Part shown: positions 1 through 64,000 of the stretch, in pieces
Layout: each line of letters begins with the position of its first letter
Numbering within the stretch: position 1 is the first letter of the stretch
Source: Balaenoptera acutorostrata
Lineage: Eukaryota; Chordata; Mammalia; Artiodactyla; Balaenopteridae
Length of the DNA: 64,000 bases
Assembly (NCBI RefSeq): GCF_949987535.1
Contig: NW_026646042.1
Location: forward strand, 124,001 to 188,000
Direction of reading: 5' to 3'
Program-made: the position numbers and the translations under genes
Notes under the pieces: model-generated
What the model was told of the DNA's origin: nothing
The model's database searches: none
The model's input: the letters and a program-made list of their open reading frames with translations, nothing else

Positions 1-75
1 TTTCCGCATGGCCCTTTTGCCCGCTGGGAAGCGAGACTTCTTTGGAGCGCTGATTGGCCTTTCCAGGTTGCTTGG
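1..75 (+). repeat. Satellite monomer 0, right end only
   Basis: The last 75 bases of a monomer that starts outside the window. It ends with CCGCATGG, GAAGCGAG and TTGGAGCGCTG, so its tail is type A, C or D; the diagnostic T-run is off the edge. Confidence 0.95.
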
Positions 76-1833
76 TTGGCCAAAAAGGGCGTATGCGTTT
101 TTTCCTGAATATATTCAGGAAAAAACGCATACGCCCTTTTTGGCCAAGGGCATCATTGTCCACGTTTTGCCGCTTTTCATGTGCTTTCAAGGCGATTCGA
201 ATCTACCTCCTGAAATCTGTTTCCTGCAATTCTGCCTTGCTTTCAAAGCCTCTTCGTTGCCTTCCCTTAATATATTTGTGGACGAGAGGTATCATTTAAA
301 ACTCTGCAGGTTTGTCAATTGCAGTGTCCCTGAGCTCCATTTTTCAACTCGCTTTTTTGGGAGCTGCCCGCAAAAGCGCAGGATTGCTTCAGGCCCTCTT
401 CTTGTTCTGGGGGGCAGGCTGAGCTTGTGCTTAATTCTTCTTCCTGATGGGAAAATAGAGTGACCTGTGCCTGTCCCAACACCTAGAGCTAGTCTCTCAT
501 TGGTTCCCCGTCTTCCCGTTCATCCTCAGGACAAATTGCAACCTGTACGGAACAGGAGGTTAAAGGTGCTGATTCTCCAAGGAGGGAGATGGCTAGTAAA
601 TCGGCTGGAATGGCGAACCCGAGCAAAGGAGATGAGAAATGAGGTGCGTTTTAGAAACCTTTCCCGATCACACGGTGTACCATCTTCTGGGTTTCTCATG
701 CCTGTTTTCGACGTAGGAAGATGCCCTTGAACCTGGAGATTTGGGACCCATGGGATGGGTACCATGCAGTATTACTTGAAAGGGTCTGCGTTGGCTCACC
801 CAACCTCACCGAACCTCTCAGCCCCAAGAGTGTCCACCCTTATGTCTCAATCAGCTGTGGGTCTAGATATGGTCAATCCAGGTTGCATCACAGCCCCTGA
901 ACGAATTTTGTAAGAATTTCTCTCTCTTTCACTGTCTTTGTTTCACGGGTTTTGAAAAGTAATTTATTTTTATAATGGGGTTTAGCTGCTTTTCACGGCT
1001 GTGTTTATGCCGCTTTACACCCCCTTGACTCACTTACAGAGAGATATCAATACATAGGTTTGAAGATTCTTACTAGTCAGATATATTCTTGTGCGGTGAA
1101 TAGGGGGTGTTGAGTCCAGTTCACTGAAAAAGGAATAGGTCTTGTCTCTTACATATTGGGTTTATGGAACGGTATCTGAGCTAATTTGAAACCCTTGTTT
1201 TATGCATCACCCCACCTCACCTTTCCCGTTCAGCAGCCATAGTGTGTTTCCTAAACGTGGGACTCTGTTCTGTTTTGTAATTCAGTTCAAGTGTAGCGGT
1301 TTTACATTCCCTCTCTAAGTGATATCTTATGATAAGTGTCTTTTTCTGTGTGACTTATTTCACTTAGAATCGTCGTACCTAAATCCACTCATCGTGCTGC
1401 TACTAGCCTTATGACGTTGATTTCATGGCTGAGTGATATTCCATTGTACATGAGGACCCCAACTTCTTTATCCATTTTTCTCTTTCCTAGGATATTTAAG
1501 GTGTAATGAAGTGGGGGTTCTTGTCCACAGAGCAGCCCTAAACTTTGGGGTGCCTGTGTCTTGCTGATTTTTAGTTTTCCCAATTTATACGCCCATGAGT
1601 GGAAGTGCCCTATGCTCTCCAAGCTGTGTTTTTTAGATGTTTCAGAACACACCGTACACTTCTCCAGAGTGGCTGTTGGCAATTTACATCCCAACCATCA
1701 GCGTAGCAAGGCTCCCATTTCTCCATGGCCGGTCCTGCATTTCTGGTTTGGACACTTTTTTCCGCATGGCCCTTTTGCCCGCTGGGAAGCGAGACTTCTT
1801 TGGAGCGCTGATTGGCCTTTCCAGGTTGCTTGG
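76..1833 (+). repeat. Satellite monomer 1 (1,758 bp)
   Basis: Head near type 4 but with private changes (GTTTGTCAATTGC, AGTGTCCCTG, AGCTGCCCGCAAAAG, CTTCTTGTTCTGG); tail A. It is one base short because the run in GCGGTTTTACATT near 1300 has four T instead of five, followed by CTCTCTAAG instead of CTCTAGAAG. It also has CCAACCATC near 1690 where other copies have CCACCCATC. Confidence 0.95.
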
Positions 1834-2705
1834 TTGGCCAAAAAGGGCGTATGCGTTTTTTCCTGAATATATTCAGGAAAAAACGCATACGCCCTTTTTG
1901 GCCAAGGGCATCATTGTCCACGTTTTGCCGCTTTTCATGTGCTTTCAAGGCGATTCGAATCTACCTCCTGAAATCTGTTTCCTGCAATTCTGCCTTGCTT
2001 TCAAAGCCTCTTCGTTGCCTTCCCTTAATATATTTGTGGACGAGAGGTATCATTTAAAACTCTGCAGGTTTGCGAATTGCAGTGCCCCTGAGCTCCATTT
2101 TTCAACTCGCTTTTTTGGGAGCTGGCCACCAAAGCGCCGGATTGCTTCAGGCCCTCTTCTGGTTCTGGGGGGCAGGCTGAGCTTGTGCTTAATTCTTCTT
2201 CCTGATGGGAAAATAGAGTGACCTGTGCCTGTCCCAACACCTAGAGCTAGTCTCTCATTGGTTCCCCCTCTTCCCCTTCATCCTCAGGACAAATTGCAAC
2301 CTGTACGGAACAGGAGGTTAAAGGTGCTGATTCTCCAAGGAGGGAGATGGCTAGTAAATTAGCTGGAATGGCGAACCCGAGCAAAGGAGATGAGAAATGA
2401 GGTGCGTTTAAGAAACCTTTCCTGATCACACGGTGTACCATCTTCTGGGTTTCTCATGCCTGTTTTCGACGTAGGAAGATGCCCTTGAACCTGGAGATTT
2501 GGGACCCATGGGATGGGTACCATGCAGTATTACTTGAAAGGGTCTGCGTTGGCTCACCCAACCTCACCGAACCTCTCAGCCCCAAGAGTGTCCACCCTTA
2601 TGTCTCAATCAGCTGTGGGTCTAGATATGGTCAATCCAGGTTGCATCACAGCCCCTGAACGAATTTTGTAAGAATTTCTCTCTCTTTCACTGTCTTTGTT
2701 TCACG

Positions 2706-3060
2706 GGTTTTGAAAAGTAATTTATTTTTATAATGGGGTTTAGCTGCTTTTCACGGCTGTGTTTATGCCGCTTTACACCCCCTTGACTCACTTACAGAGA
2801 GATATCAATACATAGGTTTGAAGATTCTTACTAGTCAGATATATTCTTGTGCGGTGAATAGGGGGTGTTGAGTCCAGTTCACTGAAAAAGGAATAGGTCT
2901 TGTCTCTTACATATTGGGTTTATGGAACGGTATCGGAGCTAATTTGAAACCCTTGTTTTATGCATCACCCCACCTCACCTTTCCCGTTCAGCAGCCATAG
3001 TGTGTTTCCTAAACGTGGGACTCTGTTCTGTTTTGCAATTCAGTTCAAGGGTAGCGGTTT
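2706..3060 (-). mobile_element. LINE-1 3' UTR remnant, antisense (representative copy)
   Basis: Plus-strand order follows the antisense 3' UTR of cetartiodactyl LINE-1 as I recall it: an AT-rich start (TAATTTATTTTTATAATGGG), then TGTGTTTATGCCGCTTTACA, GAAGATTCTTAC, GGAATAGGTC, CACCTTTCCCGTTCAG and ACTCTGTTCTGTTTTG, joining the ORF2 remnant at 3061. Similarity is patchy, with small indels, and the left boundary near 2706 is an estimate. No poly-T (antisense poly-A) tract survives at that edge. Confidence 0.75.
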
Positions 3061-3592
3061 TTACATTCCCTCTAGAAGTGATATCTTATGATAAGTGTCT
3101 TTTTCTGTGTGACTTATTTCACTTAGAATCGTCGTACCTAAATCCACTCATCGTGCTGCTACTAGCCTTATGACGTTGATTTCATGGCTGAGTGATATTC
3201 CATTGTACATGAGGACCACAACTTCTTTATCCATTTTTCTCTTTCCTAGGATATTTAAGGTGTAATGAAGTGGGGGTTCTTGTCCACAGAGCAGCCCTAA
3301 ACTTTGGGGTGCCTGTGTCTTGCTGATTTTTAGTTTTCCCAATTTATACGCCCATGAGTGGAAGTGCCCTATGCTCTCCAAGCTGTGTTTTTTAGATGTT
3401 TCAGAACACACCGTACACTTCTCCAGAGTGGCTGTTGGCAATTTACATCCCACCCATCAGCGTAGCAAGGCTCCCATTTCTCCATGGCCGGTCCTGCATT
3501 TCTGGTTTGGACACTTTTTTCCGCATGGCCCTTTTGCCCGCTGGGAAGCGAGACTTCTTTGGAGCGCTGATTGGCCTTTCCAGGTTGCTTGG
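3061..3592 (-). mobile_element. LINE-1 ORF2 C-terminal remnant, antisense (representative copy)
   Basis: Read on the minus strand, this resembles the 3' end of mammalian LINE-1 ORF2, the retrotransposon's endonuclease and reverse transcriptase gene. The clearest support is a C-terminal peptide ending at the TTA complement at 3061-3063. In the sister copy at 4820-5212 it reads WVDLGTTILSEISHTEKDT, and LINE-1 proteins have a W-DL-x-x-x-ILSE-x-S-x-TEKD pattern there. Upstream, AATGGAATAT with CTCAGCCATGAAA matches the LINE-1 MEYYSAIKK codons, one base out of frame. On the plus strand, CTGAGTGATATTCCATTGTA and CTTCTTTATCCATTTTTCTC are the familiar antisense LINE-1 words. Frameshifts and stops make it non-coding. 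The equivalent stretch is in every monomer. Confidence 0.9.
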
Positions 3593-3664
3593 TTGGCCAA
3601 AAAGGGCGTATGCGTTTTTTCCTGAATATATTCAGGAAAAAACGCATACGCCCTTTTTGGCCAA
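3593..3664. repeat. Perfect 72-bp palindrome, 36-bp arms, no spacer (representative copy; one per monomer)
   Basis: The left arm runs from TTGGCCAAAAAGGGCG to CCTGAATA, and the right arm is its exact reverse complement, meeting at AATATATT with no loop bases. The same element occurs at every start listed for the array. By eye 27 of 37 copies are perfect. The exceptions each carry one change: A to C in the right arm (copies at 12386, 14144, 19421, 21180, 22939), A to G at the centre (28214, 29972), G to T in the left arm (42284, 45801) and a one-base deletion (58110). The flanks (GCTTGG before, GGGCATC after) show no target-site duplication. It could extrude as a cruciform in DNA or fold as a hairpin if transcribed; neither is shown. 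Confidence 0.98.
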
Positions 3665-3885
3665 GGGCATCATTGTCCACGTTTTGCCGCTTTTCATGTG
3701 CTTTCAAGGCGATTCGAATCTACCTCCTGACATCTGTTTCCTGCAATTCTGCCTTGCTTTCAAAGCCTCTTCGTTGCCTTCCCTTAATATATTTGTGGAC
3801 GAGAGGTATCATTTAAAACTCTGCAGGTTTGTGAATTGCAGTGCCCCTGAGCTACATTTTTCAACTCGCTTTTTTGGGAGCTGGC
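3665..3885 (-). mobile_element. LINE-1 ORF2 remnant beyond the palindrome, antisense (representative copy)
   Basis: Directly after the palindrome the plus strand reads GCCGCTTTTCATGTGCTTTC and then GGCGATTCGAATCTACCTCC and AATTCTGCC. This follows, in order, the antisense LINE-1 ORF2 stretch that contains CATCTTTTCATGTGCTTG, GGCCATCTGTATG and CTTCTGCCCA. The match is clear to about 3765. Beyond that (GGTTTGTGAATTGC, CTCCATTTTTCAACTCGC) it is weaker and could be chance. The LINE-1 alignment therefore continues on both sides of the palindrome, which places the palindrome inside the LINE-1 remnant. Confidence 0.7.
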
Positions 3886-4464
3886 CGCCAAAGCGCAGGA
3901 TTGCTTCAGGCCCTCTTCTGGTTCTGGGGGGCAGGCTGAGCTTGTGCTTAATTCTTCTTCCTGATGGGAAAATAGAGTGACCTGTGCCTGTCCCAACACC
4001 TAGAGCTAGTCTCTCATTGGTTCCCCCTCTTCCCCTTCATCCTCAGGACAAATTGCAACCTGTACGGAACAGGAGGTTAAAGGTGCTGATTCTCCAAGGA
4101 GGGAGATGGCTAGTAAATCGGCTGGAATGGCGAACCCGAGCAAAGGAGATGAGAAATGAGGTGCGTTTTAGAAACCTTTCCCGATCACACGGTGTACCAT
4201 CTTCTGGGTTTCTCATGCCTGTTTTCGACGTAGGAAGATGCCCTTGAACCTGGAGATTTGGGACCCATGGGATGGGTACCATGCAGTATTACTTGAAAGG
4301 GTCTGCGTTGGCTCACCCAACCTCACCGAACCTCTCAGCCCCAAGAGTGTCCACCCTTATGTCTCAATCAGCTGTGGGTCTAGATATGGTCAATCCAGGT
4401 TGCATCACAGCCCCTGAACGAATTTTGTAAGAATTTCTCTCTCTTTCACTGTCTTTGTTTCACG
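3886..4464. repeat. Unassigned segment of the satellite monomer (representative copy)
   Basis: About 580 bp between the two LINE-1-derived parts, seen in every monomer. I cannot match it to LINE-1 or another named repeat by eye. It contains a purine-rich stretch near 4074-4160 (GGAGGTTAAAGG, AAGGAGGGAGATGG, AAAGGAGATGAGAAATGAGG), a KpnI-type GGTACC at 4275-4280 and the small hairpin at 4263-4277. No reading frame here looks protein-like. It could be an older, more diverged part of LINE-1 ORF2, another transposon, or the ancestral host sequence. Confidence 0.6.
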
Positions 4465-4610
4465 GGTTTTGAAAAGTAATTTATTTTTATAATGGGGTTT
4501 AGCTGCTTTTCACGGCTGTGTTTATGCCGCTTTACACCCCCTTGACTCACTTACAGAGAGATATCAATACATAGGTTTGAAGATTCTTACTAGTCAGATA
4601 TATTCTTGTG
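4187..4610. other. Low-variation block within the monomer (representative copy)
   Basis: From ACACGGTGTACC to ATATTCTTGTG the copies are almost identical. Scanning all 36 copies I noted only about a dozen differences, five of them in the single copy around 18535-18660; others lie near 9640, 9851, 14755, 23676, 37753, 53571 and 57053. Flanking parts of the monomer carry most of the type markers. The block covers the end of the unassigned segment and the start of the LINE-1 3' UTR remnant. Whether this reflects function or recent homogenisation cannot be told from the sequence. Confidence 0.65.
4263..4277. repeat. Small inverted repeat ACCCAT-GGG-ATGGGT
   Basis: Six-base arms around a three-base loop, inside the low-variation block and present in every copy I read, for example at 746-760. 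It is followed directly by ACC, giving a GGTACC site. The arm length is short enough to be chance. Confidence 0.5.
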
Positions 4611-5351
4611 CGGTGAATAGGGGGTGTTGAGTCCAGTTCACTGAGCAAGGAATAGGTCTTGTCTCTTACATATTGGGTTTATGGAACGGTATCTGAGCTA
4701 ATTTGAAACCCTTGTTTTATGCATCACCCCACCTCACCTTTCCCGTTCAGCAGCCATAGTGTGTTTCCTAAACGTGGGACTCTGTTCTGTTTTGCAATTC
4801 AGTTCAAGTGTAGCGGTTTTTACATTCCCTCTAGAAGTGATATCTTATGATAAGTGTCTTTTTCTGTGTGACTTATTTCACTTAGAATCGTCGTACCTAA
4901 ATCCACCCATCGTGCTGCTACTAGCCTTATGACGTTGATTTCATGGCTGAGTGATATTCCATTGTACATGAGGACCCCAACTTCTTTATCCATTTTTCTC
5001 TTTCCTAGGATATTTAAGGTGTAATGAAGTGGGGGTTCTTGTCCACAGAGCAGCCCTAAACTTTGGGGTGCCTGTGTCTTGCTGATTTTTAGTTTTCCCA
5101 ATTTATACGGCCATGAGTGGAAGTGCCCTATGCTCTCCAAGCTGTGTTTTTTAGATGTTTCAGAACACACCGTACACTTCTCCAGAGTGGCTGTTGGCAA
5201 TTTACATCCCACCCATCAGCGTAGCAAGGCTCCCATTTCTCCATGGCCGGTCCTGCATTTCTGGTTTGGACACTTTTTTCCGCATGGCCCTTTTGCCCGC
5301 TGGGAAGCGAGACTTCTTTGGAGCGCTGATTGGCCTTTCCAGGTTGCTTGG

Positions 5352-7110
5352 TTGGCCAAAAAGGGCGTATGCGTTTTTTCCTGAATATATTCAGGAAAAA
5401 ACGCATACGCCCTTTTTGGCCAAGGGCATCATTGTCCACGTTTTGCCGCTTTTCATGTGCTTTCAAGGCGATTCGAATCTACCTCCTGACATCTGTTTCC
5501 TGCAATTCTGCCTTGCTTTCAAAGCCTCTTCGTTGCCTTCCCTTAATATATTTGTGGACGAGAGGTATCATTTAAAACTCTGCAGGTTTGTGAATTGCAG
5601 TGCCCCTGAGCTCCATTTTTCAACTCGCTTTTTTGGGAGCTGGCCGCAAAAGCGCAGGATTGCTTCAGGCCCTCTTCTGGTTCTGGGGGGCAGGCTGAGC
5701 TTGTGCTTAATTCTTCTTCCTGATGGGAAAATAGAGTGACCTGTGCCTGTCCCAACACCTAGAGCTAGTCTCTCATTGGTTCCCCCTCTTCCCCTTCATC
5801 CTCAGGACAAATTGCAACCTGTACGGAACAGGAGGTTAAAGGTGCTGATTCTCCAAGGAGGGAGATGGCTAGTAAATCGGCTGGAATGGCGAACCCGAGC
5901 AAAGGAGATGAGAAATGAGGTGCGTTTTAGAAACCTTTCCCGATCACACGGTGTACCATCTTCTGGGTTTCTCATGCCTGTTTTCGACGTAGGAAGATGC
6001 CCTTGAACCTGGAGATTTGGGACCCATGGGATGGGTACCATGCAGTATTACTTGAAAGGGTCTGCGTTGGCTCACCCAACCTCACCGAACCTCTCAGCCC
6101 CAAGAGTGTCCACCCTTATGTCTCAATCAGCTGTGGGTCTAGATATGGTCAATCCAGGTTGCATCACAGCCCCTGAACGAATTTTGTAAGAATTTCTCTC
6201 TCTTTCACTGTCTTTGTTTCACGGGTTTTGAAAAGTAATTTATTTTTATAATGGGGTTTAGCTGCTTTTCACGGCTGTGTTTATGCCGCTTTACACCCCC
6301 TTGACTCACTTACAGAGAGATATCAATACATAGGTTTGAAGATTCTTACTAGTCAGATATATTCTTGTGCGGTGAATAGGGGGTGTTGCGTCCAGTTCAC
6401 TGAAAAAGGAATAGGTCTTGTCTCTTACATATTGGGTTTATGGAACGGTATCTGAGCTAATTTGAAACCCTTGTTTTATGCATCACCCCACCTCACCTTT
6501 CCCGTTCAGCAGCCATAGTGTGTTTCCTAAACGTGTGACTCTGTTCTGTTTTGCAATTCAGTTCAAGTGTAGCGGTTTTTACATTCCCTCTAGAAGTGAT
6601 ATCTTATGATAAGTGTCTTTTTCTGTGTGACTTATTTCACTTAGAATCGTCGTACCTAAATCCACTCATCGTGCTGCTACTAGCCTTATGACGTGGATTT
6701 CATGGCTGAGTGATATTCCATTGTACATGAGGATCACAACTTCTTTATCCATTTTTCTCTTTCCTAGGATATTTAAGGTGTAATGAAGTGGGGGTTCTTG
6801 TCCACAGAGCAGCCCTAAACTTTGGGGTGCCTGTGTCTTGCTGATGTTTAATTTTCCCAATTTATACGCCCATGAGTGGAAGTGCCCTATGCTCTCCAAG
6901 CTGTGTTTTTTAGATGTTTCAGGACACACCGTACACTTCTCCAGAGTGGCTGTTGGCAATTTACATCCCACCCATCAGCGTAGCAAGGCTCCCATTTCTC
7001 CATGGCCGGTCCTGCATTTCTGGTTTGGACACTTTTTTCCGCATGGCCCTTTTGCCCGCTGGGAAGCGAGACTTCTTTGGAGCGCTGATTGGCCTTTCCA
7101 GGTTGCTTGG
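5352..7110 (+). repeat. Satellite monomer 4 (1,759 bp)
   Basis: Head 4 (CTCCTGACATC, CCGCAAAAGC); tail D, the first of this type in the window. Extra marks are GTTGCGTCC, CGTGTGACTC, GACGTGGATTT and GTTTAATTTTCCC. Confidence 0.95.
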
Positions 7111-8868
7111 TTGGCCAAAAAGGGCGTATGCGTTTTTTCCTGAATATATTCAGGAAAAAACGCATACGCCCTTTTTGGCCAAGGGCATCATTGTCCACGT
7201 TTTGCCGCTTTTCATGTGCTTTCAAGGCGATTTGAATCTACCTCCTGAAATCTGTTTCCTGCAATTCTGCCTTGCTTTCAAAGCCTCTTCGTTGCCTTCC
7301 CTTAATATATTTGTGGACGAGAGGTATCATTTAAAACTCTGCAGGTTTGTGAATTGCAGTGCCCCTGAGCTCCATTTTTCAACTCGCTTTTTTGGGAGCT
7401 GGCCGCCAAAGCGCAGGATTGCTTCAGGCCCTCTTCTGGTTCTGGGGGGCAGGCTGAGCTTGTGCTTAATTCTTCTTCCTGATGGGAAAATAGAGTGACC
7501 TGTGCCTGTCCCAACACCTAGAGCTAGTCTCTCATTGGTTCCCCCTCTTCCCCTTCATCCTCAGGACAAATTGCAACCTGTACGGAACAGGAGGTTAAAG
7601 GTGCTGATTCTCCAAGGAGGGAGATGGCTAGTAAATCGGCTGGAATGGCGAACCCGAGCAAAGGAGATGAGAAATGAGGTGCGTTTTAGAATCCTATCCC
7701 GATCACACGGTGTACCATCTTCTGGGTTTCTCATGCCTGTTTTCGACGTAGGAAGATGCCCTTGAACCTGGAGATTTGGGACCCATGGGATGGGTACCAT
7801 GCAGTATTACTTGAAAGGGTCTGCGTTGGCTCACCCAACCTCACCGAACCTCTCAGCCCCAAGAGTGTCCACCCTTATGTCTCAATCAGCTGTGGGTCTA
7901 GATATGGTCAATCCAGGTTGCATCACAGCCCCTGAACGAATTTTGTAAGAATTTCTCTCTCTTTCACTGTCTTTGTTTCACGGGTTTTGAAAAGTAATTT
8001 ATTTTTATAATGGGGTTTAGCTGCTTTTCACGGCTGTGTTTATGCCGCTTTACACCCCCTTGACTCACTTACAGAGAGATATCAATACATAGGTTTGAAG
8101 ATTCTTACTAGTCAGATATATTCTTGTGCGGTGAATAGGGGGTGTTGAGTCCAGTTCACTGAAAAAGGAATAGGTCTTGTCTCTTACATATTGGGTTTAT
8201 GGAACGGTATCTGAGCTAATTTGAAACCCTTGTTTTATGCATCACCCCACCTCACCTTTCCCGTTCAGCAGCCATAGTGTGTTTCCTAAACGTGGGACTC
8301 TGTTCTGTTTTGCAATTCAGTTCAAGTGTAGCGGTTTTTACATTCCCTCTAGAAGTGATATCTTATGATAAGTGTCTTTTTCTGTGTGACTTATTTCACT
8401 TAGAATCGTCGTACCTAAATCCACTCATCGTGCTGCTACGAGCCTTATGACGTTGATTTCATGGCTGAGTGATATTCCATTGTACATGAGGACCACAACT
8501 TCTTTATCCATTTTTCTCTTTCCTAGGATATTTAAGGTGTAATGAAGTGGGGGTTCTTGTCCACAGAGCAGCCCTAAACTTTGGGGTGCCTGTGTCTTGC
8601 TGATTTTTAGTTTTCCCAATTTATACGCCCATGAGTGGAAGTGCCCTATGCTCTCCAAGCTGTGTTTTTAGATGTTTCAGAACACAACGTACACTTCTCC
8701 GGAGTGCCTGTTGGCAATTTACATCCCACCCATCAGCGTAGCAAGGCTCCCATTTCTCCATGGCCGGTCCTGCATTTCTGGTTTGGACACTTTTTTCCCC
8801 ATGGCCCTTTTGCCCGCTGGGAAGTGAGACTTCTTTGGAGCGCTGATTGGCCTTTCCAGGTTGCTTGG
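7111..8868 (+). repeat. Satellite monomer 5 (1,758 bp)
   Basis: Head 1 with private GATTTGAATC and AGAATCCTATCCC; tail B with TACGAGCC. The five-T run at the tail accounts for the shorter length. Confidence 0.95.
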
Positions 8869-10626
8869 TTGGCCAAAAAGGGCGTATGCGTTTTTTCCTG
8901 AATATATTCAGGAAAAAACGCATACGCCCTTTTTGGCCAAGGGCATCATTGTCCACGTTTTGCCGCTTTTCATGTGCTTTCAAGGCGATTCGAATCTACC
9001 TCCTGAAATCTGTTTCCTGCAATTCTGCCTTGCTTTCAAAGCCTCTTCGTTGCCTTCCCTTAATATATTTGTGGACGAGAGGTATCATTTAAAACTCTGC
9101 AGGTCTGTGAATTGCAGTGCCCCTGAGCTCCATTTTTCAACTCGCTTTTTTGTGAGCTGGCCGCCAAAGCGCAGGATTGCTTCAGGCCCTCTTCTGGTTC
9201 TGTGGGGCAGGCTGAGCTTGTGCTTAATTCTTCTTCCTGATGGGAAAATAGAGTGACCTGTGCCTGTCCCAATACCTAGAGCTAGTCTCTCATTGGTTCC
9301 CCCTCTTCCCCTTCATCCTCAGGACAAATTGCAACCTGTACGGAACAGGAGGTTAAAGGTGCTGATTCTCCAAGGAGGGAGATGGCTAGTAAATCGGCTG
9401 GAATGGCGAACCCGAGCAAAGGAGATGAGAAATGAGGTGCGTTTTAGAAACCTTTCCCGATCACACGGTGTACCATCTTCTGGGTTTCTCATGCCTGTTT
9501 TCGACGTAGGAAGATGCCCTTGAACCTGGAGATTTGGGACCCATGGGATGGGTACCATGCAGTATTACTTGAAAGGGTCTGCGTTGGCTCACCCAACCTC
9601 ACCGAACCTCTCAGCCCCAAGAGTGTCCACCCTTATGTCACAATCAGCTGTGGGTCTAGATATGGTCAATCCAGGTTGCATCACAGCCCCTGAACGAATT
9701 TTGTAAGAATTTCTCTCTCTTTCACTGTCTTTGTTTCACGGGTTTTGAAAAGTAATTTATTTTTATAATGGGGTTTAGCTGCTTTTCACGGCTGTGTTTA
9801 TGCCGCTTTACACCCCCTTGACTCACTTACAGAGAGATATCAATACATAGCTTTGAAGATTCTTACTAGTCAGATATATTCTTGTGTGGTGAATAGGGGG
9901 TGTTGAGTCCAGTTCACTGAAAAAGGAATAGGTCTTGTCTCTTACATATTGGGTTTATGGAACGGTATCTGAGCTAATTTGAAACCCTTGTTTTATGCAT
10001 CACCCCACCTCACCTTTCCCGTTCAGCAGCCATAGTGTGTTTCCTAAACGTGGGACTCTGTTCTGTTTTGCAATTCAGTTCAAGTGTAGCGGTTTTTACA
10101 TTCCCTCTAGAAGTGATATCTTATGATAAGTGTCTTTTTCTGTGTGACTTATTTCACTTAGAATCGTCGTACCTAAATCCACTCATCGTGCTGCTACGAG
10201 CCTTATGACGTTGATTTCATGGCTGAGTGATATTCCATTGTACATGAGGACCACAACTTCTTTATCCATTTTTCTCTTTCCTAGGATATTTAAATTGTAA
10301 TGAAGTGGGGGTTCTTGTCCACAGAGCAGCCCTAAACTTTGGGGTGCCTGTGTCTTGCTGATTTTTAGTTTTCCCAATTTATACGCCCATGAGTGGAAGT
10401 GCCCTATGCTCTCCAAGCTGTGTTTTTAGATGTTTCAGAACACAACGTACACTTCTCCGGAGTGCCTGTTGGCAATTTACATCCCACCCATCAGCGTAGC
10501 AAGGCTCCCATTTCTCCATGGCCGGTCCTGCATTTCTGGTTTGGACACTTTTTTCCCCATGGCCCTTTTGCCCGCTGGGAAGTGAGACTTCTTTGGAGCG
10601 CTGATTGGCCTTTCCAGGTTGCTTGG
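8869..10626 (+). repeat. Satellite monomer 6 (1,758 bp)
   Basis: Mixed head (GTCTGTG of type 2 with GGCCGCC of type 1); private TTTTGTGAGCTGG, CTGTGGGGC, CCAATACC, TGTCACAATC, ATAGCTTTG and TTTAAATTG. Tail B. Confidence 0.95.
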
Positions 10627-12385
10627 TTGGCCAAAAAGGGCGTATGCGTTTTTTCCTGAATATATTCAGGAAAAAACGCATACGCCCTTTTTGGCCAAGG
10701 GCATCATTGTCCACGTTTTGCCGCTTTTCATGTGCTTTCAAGGCGATTCGAATCTACCTCCTGAAATCTGTTTCCTGCAATTCTGCCTTGCTTTCAAAGC
10801 CTCTTCGTTGCCTTCCCTTAATATATTTGTGGACGAGAGGTATCATTTAAAACTCTGCAGGTTTGTGAATTGCAGTGCCCCTGAGCTCCATTTTTCAACT
10901 CGCTTTTTTGGGAGCTGGCCGCCAAAGCGCAGGATTGCTTCAGGCCCTCTTCTGGTTCTGGGGGGCAGGCTGAGCTTGTGCTTAATTCTTCTTCCTGATG
11001 GGAAAATAGAGTGACCTGTGCCTGTCCCAACACCTAGAGCTAGTCTCTCATTGGTTCCCCCTCTTCCCCTTCATCCTCAGGACAAATTGCAACCTGTACG
11101 GAACAGGAGGTTAAAGGTGCTGATTCTCCAAGGAGGGAGATGGCTAGTAAATCGGCTGGAATGGCGAACCCGAGCAAAGGAGATGAGAAATGAGGTGCGT
11201 TTTAGAAACCTTTCCCGATCACACGGTGTACCATCTTCTGGGTTTCTCATGCCTGTTTTCGACGTAGGAAGATGCCCTTGAACCTGGAGATTTGGGACCC
11301 ATGGGATGGGTACCATGCAGTATTACTTGAAAGGGTCTGCGTTGGCTCACCCAACCTCACCGAACCTCTCAGCCCCAAGAGTGTCCACCCTTATGTCTCA
11401 ATCAGCTGTGGGTCTAGATATGGTCAATCCAGGTTGCATCACAGCCCCTGAACGAATTTTGTAAGAATTTCTCTCTCTTTCACTGTCTTTGTTTCACGGG
11501 TTTTGAAAAGTAATTTATTTTTATAATGGGGTTTAGCTGCTTTTCACGGCTGTGTTTATGCCGCTTTACACCCCCTTGACTCACTTACAGAGAGATATCA
11601 ATACATAGGTTTGAAGATTCTTACTAGTCAGATATATTCTTGTGCGGTGAATAGGGGGTGTTGAGTCCAGTTCACTGAAAAAGGAATAGGTCTTGTCTCT
11701 TACATATTGGGTTTATGGAACGGTATCTGAGCTAATTTGAAACCCTTGTTTTATGCATCACCCCACCTCACCTTTCCCGTTCAGCAGCCATAGTGTGTTT
11801 CCTAAACGTGGGACTCTGTTCTGTTTTGCAATTCAGTTCAAGGGTAGCGGTTTTTACATTCCCTCTAGAAGTGATATCTTATGATAAGTGTCTTTTTCTG
11901 TGTGACTTATTTCACTTAGAATCGTCGTACCTAAATCCACTCATCGTGCTGCTACTAGCCTTATGACGTTGATTTCATGGCTGAGTGATATTCCATTGTA
12001 CATGAGGACCACAACTTCTTTATCCATTTTTCTCTTTCCTAGGATATTTAAGGTGTAATGAAGTGGGGGTTCTTGTCCACAGAGCAGCCCTAAACTTTGG
12101 GGTGCCTGTGTCTTGCTGATTTTTAGTTTTCCCAATTTATACGCCCATGAGTGGAAGTGCCCTATGCTCTCCAAGCTGTGTTTTTTAGATGTTTCAGAAC
12201 ACACCGTACACTTCTCCAGAGTGGCTGTTGGCAATTTACATCCCACCCATCAGCGTAGCAAGGCTCCCATTTCTCCATGGCCAGTCCTGCATTTCTGGTT
12301 TGGACACTTTTTTCCGCATGGCCCTTTTGCCCGCTGGGAAGCGAGACTTCTTTGTAGCGCTGATTGGCCTTTCCAGGTTGCTTGG
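10627..12385 (+). repeat. Satellite monomer 7 (1,759 bp)
   Basis: Head 1; tail E with private GGCCAGTCC near 12280. Confidence 0.95.
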
Positions 12386-14143
12386 TTGGCCAAAAAGGGC
12401 GTATGCGTTTTTTCCTGAATATATTCAGGAAAAACCGCATACGCCCTTTTTGGCCAAGGGCATCATTGTCAACGTTTTGCCGCTTTTCATGTGCTTTCAA
12501 GGCGATTCGAATCTACCTCCTGAAATCTGTTTCCTGCAATTCTGCCTTGCTTTCAAAGCCTCTTCGTTGCCTTCCCTTAATATATTTGTGGACGAGAGGT
12601 ATCATTTAAAACTCTGCAGGTTTGCGAATTGCAGTGCCCCTGAGCTCCATTTTTCAACTCGCTTTTTTGGGAGCTGGCCACCAAAGCGCAGGATTGCTTC
12701 AGGCCCTCTTCTGGTTCTGGGGGGCAGGCTGAGCTTGTGCTTAATTCTTCTTCCTGATGGGAAAATAGAGTGACCTGTGCCTGTCCCAACACCTAGAGCT
12801 AGTCTCTCATTCGTTCCCCCTCTTCCCGTTCATCCTCAGGACAAATTGCAACCTGTACGGAAAAGGAGGTTAAAGGTGCTGATTCTCCAAGGAGGGAGAT
12901 GGCTAGCAAATCGGCTGGAATGGCGAACCCGAGCAAAGGAGATGAGAAATGAGGTGCGTTTTAGAAACCTTTCCCGATCACACGGTGTACCATCTTCTGG
13001 GTTTCTCATGCCTGTTTTCGACGTAGGAAGATGCCCTTGAACCTGGAGATTTGGGACCCATGGGATGGGTACCATGCAGTATTACTTGAAAGGGTCTGCG
13101 TTGGCTCACCCAACCTCACCGAACCTCTCAGCCCCAAGAGTGTCCACCCTTATGTCTCAATCAGCTGTGGGTCTAGATATGGTCAATCCAGGTTGCATCA
13201 CAGCCCCTGAACGAATTTTGTAAGAATTTCTCTCTCTTTCACTGTCTTTGTTTCACGGGTTTTGAAAAGTAATTTATTTTTATAATGGGGTTTAGCTGCT
13301 TTTCACGGCTGTGTTTATGCCGCTTTACACCCCCTTGACTCACTTACAGAGAGATATCAATACATAGGTTTGAAGATTCTTACTAGTCAGATATATTCTT
13401 GTGCGGTGAATAGGGGGTGTTGAGTCCAGTTCACTGAAAAAGGAATAGGTCTTGTCTCTTACATATTGGGTTTATGGAACGGTATCTGAGCTAATTTGAA
13501 ACCCTTGTTTTATGCATCACCCCACCTCACCTTTCCCGTTCAGCAGCCATAGTGTGTTTCCTAAACGTGGGACTCTGTTCTGTTTTGCAATTCAGTTCAA
13601 GTGTAGCGGTTTTTACATTCCCTCTAGAAGTGATATCTTATGATAAGTGTCTTTTTCTGTGTGACTTATTTCACTTAGAATCGTCGTACCTAAATCCACT
13701 CATCGTGCTGCTACTAGCCTTATGACGTTGATTTCATGGCTGAGTGATATTCCATTGTACATGAGGACCACAACTTCTTTATCCATTTTTCTCTTTCCTA
13801 GGATATTTAAGGTGTAATGAAGTGGGGGTTCTTGTCCACAGAGCAGCCCTAAACTTTGGGGTGCCTGTGTCTTGCTGATTTTTAGTTTTCCCAATTTATA
13901 CGCCCATGAGTGGAAGTGCCCTATGCTCTCCAAGCTGTGTTTTTAGATGTTTCAGAACACACCGTACACTTCTCCGGAGTGCCTGTTGGCAATTTACATC
14001 CCACCCATCAGCATAGCAAGGCTCCCATTTCTCCATGGCCGGTCCTGCATTTGTGGTTTGGACACTTTTTTCCGCATGGCCCTTTTGCCCGCTGGGAAGC
14101 GAGACTTCTTTGGAGCGCTGATTGGCCTTTCCAGGTTGCTTGG
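12386..14143 (+). repeat. Satellite monomer 8 (1,758 bp)
   Basis: Head 3 complete; the palindrome has the A to C change at 12435. Private GTCAACGTTTT and CATTCGTTCCC. Tail C with private TTTGTGGTTTGG. Confidence 0.95.
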
Positions 14144-15902
14144 TTGGCCAAAAAGGGCGTATGCGTTTTTTCCTGAATATATTCAGGAAAAACCGCATAC
14201 GCCCTTTTTGGCCAAGGGCATCATTGTCCACGTTTTGCCGCTTTTCATGTGCTTTCAAGGCGATTCGAATCTACCTCCTGAAATCTGTTTCCTGCAATTC
14301 TGCCTTGCTTTCAAAGCCTCTTCGTTGCCTTCCCTTAATATATTTGTGGACGAGAGGTATCATTTAAAACTCTGCAGGTTTGTGAATTGCAGTGCCCCTG
14401 AGCTCCATTTTTCAACTCGCTTTTTTGGGAGCTGGCCGCCAAAGCGCAGGATTGCTTCAGGCCCTCTTCTGGTTCTGGGGGGCAGGCTGAGCTTGTGCTT
14501 AATTCTTCTTCCTGATGGGAAAATAGAGTGACCTGTGCCTGTCCCAACACCTAGAGCTAGTCTCTCATTGGTTCCCCCTCTTCCCCTTCATCCTCAGGAC
14601 AAATTGCAACCTGTACGGAACAGGAGGTTAAAGGTGCTGATTCTCCAAGGAGGGAGATGGCTAGTAAATCGGCTGGAATGGCGAACCCGAGCAAAGGAGA
14701 TGAGAAATGAGGTGCGTTTTAGAAACCTTTCCCGATCACACGGTGTACCATCTTTTGGGTTTCTCATGCCTGTTTTCGACGTAGGAAGATGCCCTTGAAC
14801 CTGGAGATTTGGGACCCATGGGATGGGTACCATGCAGTATTACTTGAAAGGGTCTGCGTTGGCTCACCCAACCTCACCGAACCTCTCAGCCCCAAGAGTG
14901 TCCACCCTTATGTCTCAATCAGCTGTGGGTCTAGATATGGTCAATCCAGGTTGCATCACAGCCCCTGAACGAATTTTGTAAGAATTTCTCTCTCTTTCAC
15001 TGTCTTTGTTTCACGGGTTTTGAAAAGTAATTTATTTTTATAATGGGGTTTAGCTGCTTTTCACGGCTGTGTTTATGCCGCTTTACACCCCCTTGACTCA
15101 CTTACAGAGAGATATCAATACATAGGTTTGAAGATTCTTACTAGTCAGATATATTCTTGTGCGGTGAATAGGGGGTGTTGAGTCCAGTTCACTGAAAAAG
15201 GAATAGGTCTTGTCTCTTACATATTGGGTTTATGGAACGGTATCTGAGCTAATTTGAAACCCTTGTTTTATGCATCACCCCACCTCACCTTTCCCGTTCA
15301 GCAGCCATAGTGTGTTTCCTAAACGTGGGACTCTGTTCTGTTTTGCAATTCAGTTCAAGTGTAGCGGTTTTTACATTCCCTCTAGAAGTGATATCTTATC
15401 ATAAGTGTCTTTTTCTGTGTGACTTATTTCACTTAGAATCGTCGTACCTAAATCCACTCATCGTGCTGCTACTAGCCTTATGACGTTGATTTCATGGCTG
15501 AGTGATATTCCATTGTACATGAGGACCACAACTTCTTTATCCATTTTTCTCTTTCCTAGGATATTTAAGGTGTAATGAAGTGGGGGTTCTTGTCCACAGA
15601 GCAGCCCTAAACTTTGGGGTGCCTGTGTCTTGCTGATTTTTAGTTTTCCCAATTTATACGCCCATGAGTGGAAGTGCCCTATGCTCTCCAAGCTGTGTTT
15701 TTTAGATGTTTCAGAACACACCGTACACTTCTCCAGAGTGGCTGTTGGCAATTTACATCCCACCCATCAGTGTAGCAAGGCTCCCATTTCTCCATGGCCG
15801 GTCCTGCATTTCTGGTTTGGACACTTTTTTCCCCATGGCCCTTTTGCCCGCTGGGAAGTGAGACTTCTTTGGAGCGCTGATTGGCCTTTCCAGGTTGCTT
15901 GG
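14144..15902 (+). repeat. Satellite monomer 9 (1,759 bp), mosaic tail
   Basis: Head 1 with the palindrome A to C change at 14193; private CATCTTTTGGG. The tail is type A up to about 15770 (six-T run, CCAGAGTGGCTG) and type B from about 15833 (CCCCATGG, GAAGTGAG). Confidence 0.95.
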
Positions 15903-17661
15903 TTGGCCAAAAAGGGCGTATGCGTTTTTTCCTGAATATATTCAGGAAAAAACGCATACGCCCTTTTTGGCCAAGGGCATCATTGTCCACGTTTTGCCGC
16001 TTTTCATGTGCTTTCAAGGCGATTCGAATCTACCTCCTGAAATCTGTTTCCTGCAATTCTGCCTTGCTTTCAAAGCCTCTTCGTTGCCTTCCCTTAATAT
16101 ATTTGTGGACGAGAGGTATCATTTAAAACTCTGCAGGTCTGTGAATTGCAGTGCCCCTGAGCTCCATTTTTCAACTCGCTTTTTTGGGAGCTGGCCGCAA
16201 AAGCGCAGGATTGCTTCAGGCCCTCTTCTGGTTCTGGGGGGCCGGCTGAGCTTGTGCTTAATTCTTCTTCCTGATGGGAAAATAGAGTGACCTGTGCCTG
16301 TCCCAACACCTAGAACTAGTCTCTCATTGGTTCCCCCTCTTCCCCTTCATCCTCAGGACAAATTGCAACCTGTACGGAACAGGAGGTTAAAGGTGCTGAT
16401 TCTCCAAGGAGGGAGATGGCTAGTAAATCGGCTGGAATGGCAAACCCGAGCAAAGGAGATGAGAAATGAGGTGCGTTTTAGAAACCTTTCCCGATCACAC
16501 GGTGTACCATCTTCTGGGTTTCTCATGCCTGTTTTCGACGTAGGAAGATGCCCTTGAACCTGGAGATTTGGGACCCATGGGATGGGTACCATGCAGTATT
16601 ACTTGAAAGGGTCTGCGTTGGCTCACCCAACCTCACCGAACCTCTCAGCCCCAAGAGTGTCCACCCTTATGTCTCAATCAGCTGTGGGTCTAGATATGGT
16701 CAATCCAGGTTGCATCACAGCCCCTGAACGAATTTTGTAAGAATTTCTCTCTCTTTCACTGTCTTTGTTTCACGGGTTTTGAAAAGTAATTTATTTTTAT
16801 AATGGGGTTTAGCTGCTTTTCACGGCTGTGTTTATGCCGCTTTACACCCCCTTGACTCACTTACAGAGAGATATCAATACATAGGTTTGAAGATTCTTAC
16901 TAGTCAGATATATTCTTGTGTGGTGAATAGGGGGTGTTGAGTCCAGTTCACTGAAAAAGGAATAGGTCTTGTCTCTTACATATTGGGTTTATGGAACGGT
17001 ATCTGAGCTAATTTGAAACCCTTGTTTTATGCATCACCCCACCTCACCTTTCCCGTTCAGCAGCCATAGTGTGTTTCCTAAACGTGGGACTCTGTTCTGT
17101 TTTGCAATTCAGTTCAAGGGTAGCGGTTTTTACATTCCCTCTAGAAGTGATATCTTATGATAAGTGTCTTTTTCTGTGTGACTTATTTCACTTAGAATCG
17201 TCGTACCTAAATCCACTCATCGTGCTGCTACTAGCCTTATGACGTTGATTTCATGGCTGAGTGATATTCCATTGTACATGAGGACCACAACTTCTTTATC
17301 CATTTTTCTCTTTCCTAGGATATTTAAGGTGTAATGAAGTGGGGGTTCTTGTCCACAGAGCAGCCCTAAACTTTGGGGTGCCTGTGTCTTGCTGATGTTT
17401 AGTTTTCCCAATTTATACGCCCATGAGTGGAAGTGCCCTATGCTCTCCAAGCTGTGTTTTTTAGATGTTTCAGAACACACCGTACACTTCTCCAGAGTGG
17501 CTGTTGGCAATTTACATCCCACCCATCAGCGTAGCAAGGCTCCCATTTCTCCATGGCCGGTCCTGCATTTCTGGTTTGGACACTTTTTTCCGCATGGCCC
17601 TTTTGCCCGCTGGGAAGCGAGACTTCTTTGGAGCGCTAATTGGCCTTTCCAGGTTGCTTGG
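15903..17661 (+). repeat. Satellite monomer 10 (1,759 bp)
   Basis: Head 2, continuing the type-B switch before it; private CTAGAACTAG and GGCAAACCCG. Tail A with GATGTTTAG and GCGCTAATTGG, the latter shared with the copy ending at 54592. Confidence 0.95.
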
Positions 17662-19420
17662 TTGGCCAAAAAGGGCGTATGCGTTTTTTCCTGAATATAT
17701 TCAGGAAAAAACGCATACGCCCTTTTTGGCCAAGGGCATCATTGTCCACGTTTTGCCGCTTTTCATCTGCTTTCAAGGCGATTCGAATCTACCTCCTGAA
17801 ATCTGTTTCCTGCAATTCTGCCTTGCTTTCAAAGCCTCTTCGTTGCCTTCCCTTAATATATTTGTGGACGAGAGGTATCATTTAAAACTCTGCAGGTTTG
17901 TGAATTGCAGTGCCCCTGAGCTCCATTTTTCAACTCCCTTTTTTGGGAGCTGCCCGCAAAACCGCAGGATTGCTTCAGGCCCTCTTCTGGTTCTGGGGGG
18001 CAGGCTGAGCTTGTGCTTAATTCTTCTTCCCGATGGGAAAATAGAGTGACCTGTGCCTGTCCCAACACCTAGAGCTAGTCTCTCATTGGTTCCCCCTCTT
18101 CCCCTTCATCCTCAGGACAAATTGCAACCTGTACGGAACAGGAGGTTAAAGGTGCTGATTCTCCAAGGAGGGAGATGGCTAGTAAATCAGCTGGAATGGC
18201 GAACCCGAGCAAAGGAGATGAGAAATGAGGTGCGTTTTAGAAACCTTTCCTGATCACACGGTGTACCATCTTCTGGGTTTCTCATGCCTGTTTTCGACGT
18301 AGGAAGATGCCCTTGAACCTGGAGATTTGGGACCCATGGGATGGGTACCATGCAGTATTACTTGAAAGGGTCTGCGTTGGCTCACCCAACCTCACCGAAC
18401 CTCTCAGCCCCAAGAGTGTCCACCCTTATGTCTCAATCAGCTGTGGGTCTAGATATGGTCAATCCAGGTTGCATCACAGCCCCTGAACGAATTTTGTAAG
18501 AATTTCTCTCTCTTTCACTGTCTTTGTTTCACGGATTTTGAAATGTAATTTATTTTTATAATGGGGTTTACCTGCTTTTCACGGCTGTGTTTATGCCGCT
18601 TTACACCCCCTTGACTCACTTACAGAGAGATATCAATACATAGGTTTGAAGATTCTTCCTAGTCAGATATATTCTTGTGCGGTGAATAGGGGGTGTTGAG
18701 TCCAGTTCACTGAAAAAGGAATAGGTCTTGTCTCTTACATATTGGGTTTATGGAACGGTATCTGAGCTAATTTGAAACCCTTGTTTTATGCATCACCCCA
18801 CCTCACCTTTCCCGTTCAGCAGCTGTAGTGTGTTTCCTAAACGTGGGACTCTGTTCTGTTTTGCAATTGAGTTCAAGGGTAGCGGTTTTTACATTCCCTC
18901 TAGAAGTGATATCTTATGATAAGTGTCTTTTTCTGTGTGACTTATTTCACTTAGAATCGTCGTACCTAAATCCACTCATCGTGCTGCTACTAGCCTTATG
19001 ACGTTGATTTCATGGCTGAGTGATATTCCATTGTACATGAGGACCACAACTTCTTTATCCATTTTTCTCTTTCCTAGGATATTTAAGGTGTAATGAAGTG
19101 GGGTTTATTGTCCACAGAGCAGCCCTAAACTTTGGGGTGCCTGTGTCTTGCTGATTTTTAGTTTTCCCAATTTATACGCCCATGAGTGGAAGTGCCCTAT
19201 GCTCTCCAAGCTGTGTTTTTTAGATGTTTCAGAACACACCGTACACTTCTCCAGAGTGGCTGTTGGCAATTTACATCCCACCCATCAGCGTAGCAAGGCT
19301 CCCATTTCTCCATGGCCGGTCCTGCATTTCTGGTTTGGACACTTTTTTCCGCATGGCCCTTTTGCCCGCTGGGAAGCGAGACTTCTTTGTAGCGCTGATT
19401 GGCCTTTCCAGGTTGCTTGG
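17662..19420 (+). repeat. Satellite monomer 11 (1,759 bp), most diverged copy
   Basis: Head 4 with CCGCAAAACCGC; many private changes: TTCATCTGC, AACTCCC, CTTCCCGATGG, G to A at 18535, T at 18544, C at 18571, C at 18658, AGCTGTAGTG, CAATTGAGTTC and GGGTTTATTG. Tail E. Confidence 0.95.
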
Positions 19421-21179
19421 TTGGCCAAAAAGGGCGTATGCGTTTTTTCCTGAATATATTCAGGAAAAACCGCATACGCCCTTTTTGGCCAAGGGCATCA
19501 TTGTCCACGTTTTGCCGCTTTTCATGTGCTTTCAAGGCGATTCGAATCTACCTCCTGAAATCTGTTTCCTGCAATTCTGCCTTGCTTTCAAAGCCTCTTC
19601 GTTGCCTTCCCTTAATATATTTGTGGACGAGAGGTATCATTTAAAACTCTGCAGGTTTGCGAATTGCAGTGCCCCTGAGCTCCATTTTTCAACTCGCTTT
19701 TTTGGGAGCTGGCCACCAAAGCGCAGGATTGCTTCAGGCCCTCTTCTGGTTCTGGGGGGCAGGCTGAGCTTGTGCTTAATTCTTCTTCCTGATGGGAAAA
19801 TAGAGTGACCTGTGCCTGTCCCAACACCTAGAGCTAGTCTCTCATTGGTTCCCCCTCTTCCCGTTCATCCTCAGGACAAATTGCAACCTGTACGGAAAAG
19901 GAGGTTAAAGGTGCTGATTCTCCAAGGAGGGAGATGGCTAGCAAATCGGCTGGAATGGCGAACCCGAGCAAAGGAGATGAGAAATGAGGTGCGTTTAAGA
20001 AACCTTTCCTGATCACACGGTGTACCATCTTCTGGGTTTCTCATGCCTGTTTTCGACGTAGGAAGATGCCCTTGAACCTGGAGATTTGGGACCCATGGGA
20101 TGGGTACCATGCAGTATTACTTGAAAGGGTCTGCGTTGGCTCACCCAACCTCACCGAACCTCTCAGCCCCAAGAGTGTCCACCCTTATGTCTCAATCAGC
20201 TGTGGGTCTAGATATGGTCAATCCAGGTTGCATCACAGCCCCTGAACGAATTTTGTAAGAATTTCTCTCTCTTTCACTGTCTTTGTTTCACGGGTTTTGA
20301 AAAGTAATTTATTTTTATAATGGGGTTTAGCTGCTTTTCACGGCTGTGTTTATGCCGCTTTACACCCCCTTGACTCACTTACAGAGAGATATCAATACAT
20401 AGGTTTGAAGATTCTTACTAGTCAGATATATTCTTGTGCGGTGAATAGGGGGTGTTGAGTCCAGTTCACTGAAAAAGGAATAGGTCTTGTCTCTTACATA
20501 TTGGGTTTATGGAACGGTATCTGAGCTAATTTGAAACCCTTGTTTTATGCATCACCCCACCTCACCTTTCCCGTTCAGCAGCCATAGTGTGTTTCCTAAA
20601 CGTGGGACTCTGTTCTGTTTTGCAATTCAGTTCAAGGGTAGCGGTTTTTACATTCCCTCTAGAAGTGATATCTTATGATAAGTGTCTTTTTCTGTGTGAC
20701 TTATTTCACTTAGAATCGTCGTACCTAAATCCACTCATCGTGCTGCTACTAGCCTTATGACGTTGATTTCATGGCTGAGTGATATTCCATTGTACATGAG
20801 GACCACAACTTCTTTATCCATTTTTCTCTTTCCTAGGATATTTAAGGTGTAATGAAGTGGGGGTTCTTGTCCACAGAGCAGCCCTAAACTTTGGGGTGCC
20901 TGTGTCTTGCTGATTTTTAGTTTTCCCAATTTATACGCCCATGAGTGGAAGTGCCCTATGCTCTCCAAGCTGTGTTTTTTAGATGTTTCAGAACACACCG
21001 TACACTTCTCCAGAGTGGCTGTTGGCAATTTACATCCCACCCATCAGCGTAGCAAGGCTCCCATTTCTCCATGGCCGGTCCTGCATTTCTGGTTTGGACA
21101 CTTTTTTCCGCATGGCCCTTTTGCCCGCTGGGAAGCGAGACTTCTTTGTAGCGCTGATTGGCCTTTCCAGGTTGCTTGG
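19421..21179 (+). repeat. Satellite monomer 12 (1,759 bp)
   Basis: Head 3, tail E. First of three near-identical copies sharing the palindrome A to C change and GTTTAAGAAACCTTTCCTG. Confidence 0.95.
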
Positions 21180-63384: not shown

Positions 63385-64000
63385 TTGGCCAAAAAGGGCG
63401 TATGCGTTTTTTCCTGAATATATTCAGGAAAAAACGCATACGCCCTTTTTGGCCAAGGGCATCATTGTCCACGTTTTGCCGCTTTTCATGTGCTTTCAAG
63501 GCGATTCGAATCTACCTCCTGAAATCTGTTTCCTGCAATTCTGCCTTGCTTTCAAAGCCTCTTCGTTGCCTTCCCTTAATATATTTGTGGACGAGAGGTA
63601 TCATTTAAAACTCTGCAGGTTTGCGAATTGCAGTGCCCCTGAGCTCCATTTTTCAACTCGCTTTTTTGGGAGCTGGCCACCAAAGCGCAGGATTGCTTCA
63701 GGCCCTCTTCTGGTTCTGGGGGGCAGGCTGAGTTTGTGCTTAATTCTTCTTCCTGATGGGAAAATAGAGTGACCTGTGCCTGTCCCAACACCTAGAGCTA
63801 GTCTCTCATTGGTTCCCCCTCTTCCCGTTCATCCTCAGGACAAATTGCAACCTGTACGGAAAAGGAGGTTAAAGGTGCTGATTCTCCAAGGAGGGAGATG
63901 GCTAGCAAATCGGCTGGAATGGCGAACCCGAGCAAAGGAGATGAGAAATGAGGTGCGTTTTAGAAACTTTTCCCGATCACACGGTGTACCATCTTCTGGG
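63385..64000 (+). repeat. Satellite monomer 37, left end only
   Basis: The first 616 bases of a monomer cut by the window end. Head 3 with a perfect palindrome; private GCTGAGTTTGTG and GAAACTTTTCCC. Confidence 0.95.

Follow-up and report, generated by a model that had tools for sequence, protein, structure and literature searches.

The perfect palindrome of an abundant cetacean satellite looks like a fossil mariner-type MITE within a LINE-1 fragment

The window, a stretch of 64,000 nucleotides that forms part of contig C576 of the Balaenoptera acutorostrata assembly (genome G000, 2.77 Gb in total), is a tandem array over its whole length (1..64000, plus strand) with 37 monomers, the first and the last of them partial. 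Between the 36 internal monomer starts lie 35 distances, 21 of 1759 bp and 14 of 1758 bp, in agreement with the period of about 1,759 bp that had been read from the letters alone. Each monomer carries a palindrome at its positions 193-264, and the copy at 3593..3664 consists of 72 bases that equal their own reverse complement with the spacer absent, exactly as that sequence-only reading had described it. Its counts also stood: a monomer-by-monomer comparison found the element in 37 of 37 monomers, and the exact 72-mer occurs 27 times in the window. By chance, about 7e-18 perfect palindromes with 36-bp arms are expected in 64 kb of random sequence of the window's composition. A scan for spacerless palindromes that required perfect central arms of at least 9 bp reported 35 sites in the window, every one of them the satellite palindrome; two further copies fell below this cut-off because their A34G change adjoins the centre. 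Tandem Repeats Finder came out blank, as its longest period is 500.

The ten imperfect copies have one change each. Five carry A50C (12386..12457, 14144-14215, 19421-19492, 21180-21251 and 22939-23010), two A34G, beside the centre (28214..28285 and 29972-30043), two G13T (42284..42355 and 45801-45872), and one a deletion of A45, a single base in one arm (58110..58180). Equal changes sit in adjacent or nearby monomers (centres 12421 and 14179; 19456, 21215 and 22974; 28250 and 30008; 42319 and 45836), which fits the prediction of satellite homogenisation. The other monomers are 98.5-99.3% identical to the monomer at 3401-5159, and within the window array the diversity is 0.0063 in the palindrome versus 0.0100 in the whole monomer, at the 41st percentile of 72-bp windows. 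It is well supported that the present copies are kept alike through ordinary satellite turnover, with variants spreading to neighbours. The earlier claim that the persistence of the palindrome needs a special explanation does not hold within the array, where tandem homogenisation makes it vary like any 72-bp stretch; what survives of the claim is a comparison between arrays, discussed below, in which none of 101 fixed differences fell inside it (P=0.013).

The minus strand of the monomer corresponds to L1 ORF2. A Pfam search with two broken reading frames of the window and a PDB search with one of them gave no L1 match, and therefore we used a frameshift-tolerant alignment, with the ORF2p residues printed for PDB chains as L1 reference. 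This alignment scored 195.7, compared with maxima of 55 in 200 sequences simulated with matching dinucleotide content and 53 in 200 shuffled proteins, and covered about 150 residues of the C-terminal part, crossing the monomer boundary. In the window the ORF2-like stretch lies at 3067..3519 on the minus strand (converted from consensus positions 1426-1759 and 1-119), spans the boundary 3400/3401 and corresponds to about residues 1122-1273 of ORF2p in the numbering of PDB chain 9k6g_A. Overlapping it, the flank that reaches the palindrome (3473..3592, minus strand) scored 39.4 versus a null mean of 24.3 (sd 4.0, maximum 35.4 in 60 simulations). The other flank (3665..3804, minus strand), expected to be L1 ORF2 further upstream, was not significant in the consensus (37.1 versus a null mean of 31.0 and a maximum of 38.6) and is supported through an old, diverged monomer, L051. 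The antisense ORF2 of the monomer agrees with a passage of PMC9659126, in which the common cetacean satellite is likened to the 3′ part of L1 (citing Kapitonov et al. 1998). About 47 residues of another PDB chain, 9d2f_J, named CFAP61, also match L1 ORF2p and are perhaps an L1-derived exon.

Relatives of the palindrome are dispersed in the same genome. Exact matches to the sequence GCCAAAAAGTTCGTTYGGGTTTTTC number 291 forward and 282 reverse, while the reversed pattern used as control has 0 and 0. We fetched the first 30 listed loci, which represent 28 distinct places (L023 and L024 are the same place, as are L045 and L046), and a second inverted end, recognised by a hand-made list of end variants, lay at most 110 bp away in 26 of the 30 rows (24 of the 28 places), which delimits elements of about 80 bp. 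TA immediately flanks the left end in 21 of these 26 rows, the right end in 18 and both ends in 14. The majority core of the elements is nearly palindromic, with 68 of 70 positions self-complementary, and they look like mariner-type MITEs. All six loci submitted to Rfam out of the 30 fetched matched mir-548, with 54-70 bits, under the gathering score of 90. Presumably Mariner1_BT carries the terminal inverted repeat (TIR) of these dispersed elements, and we likewise assume that the bovine miR-2284/2285 family derives from it. Inside the dispersed elements lie the 21 letters AAAAGTTCGTTCGGGTTTTTC, which PMC6203363 gives for bovine miR-2284w and -2284y-4. The likeness of miR-2284/2285 to the palindrome arm itself, with letters taken from passages of PMC6203363 and PMC2761914, is modest (P 0.0003 for the merged arm, 0.0016-0.12 for six single arms). 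Three further loci (L080, L089 and L091) have mariner-type ends and share sequence beyond the inverted repeat; these are probably longer elements rather than MITEs.

To compare the palindrome with these elements we used a profile with no base pairs, R1, made of 41 dispersed copies, namely 24 of the 26 above (two repeated places omitted) and 17 of 20 later ones. With default filters R1 matched all 37 palindromes of the window on both strands (74 rows, 42.6-48.1 bits, E 6.5e-14 to 3.4e-12), and no other match was listed in the window up to E=10. At 3593..3664 it matched 3591-3664 on the plus strand (43.6 bits) and 3590-3664 on the minus strand (43.4 bits). Diverged full palindromes elsewhere obtained 33.3-43.6 bits and half palindromes less; the best rows for three phage loci (L001, L003 and L007), weak negative controls picked by the arm motif, reached 12.6-19.6 bits. 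Aligned to the MITE core, the palindrome scored 69, whereas 20,000 perfect palindromes simulated with a comparable composition reached 49 at most. All 37 palindromes thus have the features of a MITE, a short gene-less element with inverted repeats of the family sequence. The core is identical to the MITE majority at only 55 of 73 aligned positions, which leaves room for a distinct but related mariner family whose arms read GGGCG, and mir-548, the best Rfam family for the dispersed MITEs, was absent from the list in a scan of one monomer. Nine matches to the TIR pattern in viral contigs, among them the three control loci, were rejected as relatives, as the second arm was absent in the surrounding 200 bases. 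Taking the evidence as a whole, the best explanation, and in our judgement a very probable one, is that the palindrome is a fossil mariner-type MITE. Its source seems to be a tiny transposon that inserted into an old piece of LINE-1 and was then multiplied together with it.

Such a history implies that a palindromic MITE of about 80 bp inserted into a fragment of L1 ORF2 and that the composite became the satellite monomer, steps that we regard as well supported. The clearest case is L051, an old monomer 77-78% identical to the satellite, whose flanks we aligned to L1 copies from the same genome. With the palindrome excised, the joined flanks scored 52.0 versus a null mean of 23.9 and a maximum of 37.0 in 300 simulations, and the alignment passed through the join colinearly and without loss of L1, which argues that the MITE interrupts L1. 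The downstream flank of L051 was significant on its own (37.0, null maximum 26.0), and the upstream flank alone was not (24.5, null maximum 27.5), so that the insertion into older host sequence is seen in the joined alignment. Another old copy, L010, behaved similarly (joined 43.5, null maximum 38.5; upstream alone 21.0, null maximum 23.5). The consensus offered no clear test at the DNA level, because its flanks are too worn: upstream 23.0 (null maximum 28.0), downstream 20.5 (26.5), and joined 31.0, barely above 30.0. The TA duplication is not kept in the satellite consensus. Extra bases next to the palindrome of L051 may represent transposon ends, bordered by TA on one side and by CA on the opposite one, a reading that leans on an L1 variant that we assume.

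The satellite is abundant and of mixed age. Exact matches to the 22-base arm numbered 71,240 forward and 71,151 reverse in the genome, and the reversed control had none; one monomer per forward match would, by our arithmetic, give about 125 Mb, or 4.5% of the 2.77-Gb assembly. We took 10 kb from each of 14 contigs chosen by their number; seven were satellite at about 98-99.7% identity and seven showed none. Diverged satellite comprises 94% identical arrays on contigs C1 and C2 (L048 and L050), copies at 87-91% (L010, L012, L013 and part of L014) and copies at 75-78% (another part of L014, L049 and L051-L053). Near the start of the chromosome-size contig C2 the arm matches (4651, 10295, 15949 and 21593) are spaced by about 5,644-5,654 bp. 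The part of L049 that was read (G000:C2:1-10000) holds a satellite fragment of about 1.03 kb, 77% identical, that ends just beyond the palindrome centre, and the fragment and its junction are also found at C2:1966474 and C2:90220110. A junction between consensus positions 232 and 1079 recurs at three places on C1 (about 125.6-126.8 Mb), perhaps by segmental duplication. Searches of viral contigs, genome contigs and plasmids for L1 and for the arm returned no cetacean sequence.

How the palindrome became perfect is a separate question. As we read the alignments, four substitutions and one inserted T separate the satellite arm from that of the MITE, and these changes are mirrored in the other arm because the whole palindrome is symmetric. 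Two routes could lead there: the founder may have come from a subfamily that has been lost or has escaped notice, or one arm may have served as the template for its partner once the element had inserted, in the manner of quasipalindrome correction. The first option, in which the founder was already perfect with GGGCGTATGCG arms, came from a different, related mariner MITE subfamily and needed no arm correction, is a real possibility, though not the one we would back. It draws on the near-palindromic core of the dispersed MITEs themselves, and on the only two places in the genome that match a pattern with TGCG in both exact 12-base arms (G000:C28:127485404-127485460 and C27:14425343-14425388), which could be small subfamilies; the centre of the copy on C27 is spacerless. 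It also draws on a single dispersed mariner-type end with the GG pair. What weighs against it is that an exact dispersed end of the form TATTGGN...GGGCG was absent from the 2.77 Gb in one pattern search, in which a family with other ends would escape because the pattern required TATTGG. Allowing one mismatch gave 26 matches in 25 distinct places (16 GTCG, 8 TGCG, 1 GCCG and 1 GGGCC), and the 24 with GTCG or TGCG are single-step variants of the common TTCG arm. The GGGCC match (L091, C1:90470447) has both T-to-G changes and shows that the GG pair does occur outside the satellite. Its next letters, TTCGG, are unlike the satellite arm, the rest of which is missing there, and the match is one end of a longer element whose interior is common to L080 and L089.

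Past correction of one arm by the other is plausible on the sequence comparisons. The MITE would have been nearly palindromic on arrival, like its dispersed relatives; one or more hairpin-templated (template-switch) events after insertion would then have rewritten one arm from the other, so that the loop was lost and the substitutions became mirrored, and the resulting spacerless perfect form would have been amplified. In a small, selected sample of dispersed copies, two (L082 and L090) have a shortened, nearly spacerless centre with mirrored changes, which fits hairpin templating, and a third (L073) is shortened without mirrored changes. Of 20 fetched dispersed copies 17 have two arms, and in these we counted 8 symmetric changes versus a permuted mean of 4.3 (P=0.023, a weak value since 3 of the 8 fall at position 34, on the edge of the loop, and an arm change was what the copies had been chosen for). 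In the satellite itself, 62 of 94 palindrome copies anchored by their flanks (37 in the window, 57 elsewhere) are fully self-complementary, and a mirrored substitution pair occurs in one of the 94, in L050, adjoining a monomer with one half of the pair. Correction is therefore not frequent now, and symmetry is not policed in the living arrays. There is no need to assume a present function for the palindrome.

Comparison between arrays gave clues to slower change in the palindrome. The C1 and C2 arrays have 101 fixed differences from the window consensus, and none lies in the palindrome, where 4.1 are expected (P=0.013; P=0.036 and 0.039 for each array alone), with the reservation that the two arrays are not independent, because both were picked from among the listed arm matches and have 53 of the 101 in common. 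The longest run without a fixed difference, positions 174-277 (104 bp), includes the palindrome, and the next longest is 91 bp. In ten C1 and C2 monomers the divergence is 1.5% in the palindrome, 5.7% overall and 7.5-8.8% in the adjacent 60 bp; the centre, which lies outside the arm search, has changed no more than the arms have (5 changes in 336 versus 8 in 528). In seven other contigs the palindrome is at least as divergent as 11.6% of windows. In a further comparison within arrays, 12.6% of 294 positions are at least as often exact. Pure neutrality does not predict the lack of fixed differences in the palindrome, yet slower evolution through function or through mutual repair is suggested by these comparisons and no more than that. 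In a stronger version, which we doubt, the palindrome would be a self-correcting module whose arms template each other's repair via a hairpin, so that it remains symmetric and changes at a several-fold lower rate than the surrounding L1, with its tip as a breakage point that aids satellite rearrangement. If this were true, a transposon fossil would have given an abundant satellite its recombination motor.

An active recombination element, in which extrusion of a hairpin or cruciform and cutting of its tip would make breaks that drive unequal exchange and the spread of the satellite, seems unlikely to us. As DNA, one strand of the palindrome folds into a predicted 34-pair hairpin (-43.1 kcal/mol), and old copies have two different junctions within 10 bp of the centre: consensus 232 is joined to consensus 1079 in L012 and L014 and also in L017, and satellite homology stops at consensus 238 in L049, L052 and L053. 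There are also two different central deletions among old copies, one in L010, L013 and L016 and one in L051. All these loci were found through the arm, however, so that junctions elsewhere in the monomer were not visible and no enrichment can be claimed, and none of the palindromes in the window's 37 monomers has a structural junction.

We think it improbable, too, that binding of a dimeric protein, such as a domesticated transposase or a centromere protein, keeps the palindrome. The missing fixed differences, the long invariant run around the palindrome and the low divergence in the ten C1 and C2 monomers would suit such a role. Against this stand the dependence of the two arrays, the nearly as long second invariant run, and the unremarkable standing of the palindrome within arrays (41st percentile in the window, 11.6% of windows in seven other contigs, 12.6% of 294 positions). 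The CENP-B box core, TTCGNNNNANNCGGG, has no match in the window, where 0.19 are expected by chance. A role of the transcribed satellite as a source of hairpin RNA for Dicer, giving microRNAs or siRNAs as MADE1 gives mir-548, is very improbable. The predicted RNA hairpin has -73.6 kcal/mol over 122 nt (z -12), the related dispersed MITEs match mir-548 below gathering, and bovine miR-2284/2285 have a similar arm in the passages cited above. However, models of this kind will probably give a score to every long perfect hairpin, and none of 29 Rfam matches of one monomer up to E=10 reached gathering, the best being mir-3167 with 40.3 bits, where gathering is 86. Palindromes are a classical source of artefacts, but a fold-back in assembly or sequencing can practically be dismissed, since the element is common to arrays on several contigs and to copies about 6 to 25% diverged, with differing flanks and centre variants, and its sequence is that of a known transposon type.

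A fossil mariner-type MITE accounts for where a striking feature of this abundant satellite came from. The monomer would be a stratified fossil, L1 first and MITE second, that can help to date the satellite and to predict which whales carry it, and the genome offers tens of thousands of natural replicates of the palindrome, of varied ages, from which one can measure directly how fast arms are corrected, loops are lost and centres break. The open-access literature, as represented by titles, openings of abstracts and passages, with the key older papers represented by citations, has nothing on a palindrome or a mariner element in a cetacean satellite, and the MITE origin is likely to be new.

Compared by description only, the array resembles the common cetacean satellite, being an L1-derived tandem monomer with a period of 1758/1759, and we take about 1.76 kb to be the length of that satellite in baleen and sperm whales. 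The passages on the common cetacean satellite, in which Kapitonov, Holmquist and Jurka 1998 and Arnason et al. 1992 are cited, make no mention of a MITE component. Mariner1_BT has been reported from ruminants, toothed whales and leaf-nosed bats, by a criterion of >80% identity over about 1,280 bp (PMC3517439); the relatives of the palindrome are known here from short elements, and the satellite arm departs from the bovine-type arm by the substitutions and the inserted T given above. Associations of MITEs or mariner elements with satellites are described for Messor ants, Xenopus and bivalves (passages of PMC12628747, PMC9659126 and PMC5139131), and as in those cases a class II element is associated with, or was taken into, satellite DNA; unlike them, the MITE here sits within a piece of a LINE, and the monomer greatly exceeds it in length. 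Quasipalindrome correction by template switching predicts identical arms (excerpts of PMC3820800 and PMC8604942), and arm copying in the satellite would be a counterpart that we infer from sequence. A palindrome of 72 bp is not extraordinary for such an element, for its human analogue MADE1, a MITE of Hsmar1 with 7,850 annotated copies, is a near-perfect palindrome of 80 bp, from which mir-548 derives (part of PMC1784062). The match of the dispersed relatives to mir-548, although below the gathering score, recalls MADE1 and hsa-mir-548; unlike MADE1, the whale element has a different TIR sequence and resides as one copy within a satellite monomer, where it has been tandemly multiplied and has lost its loop.
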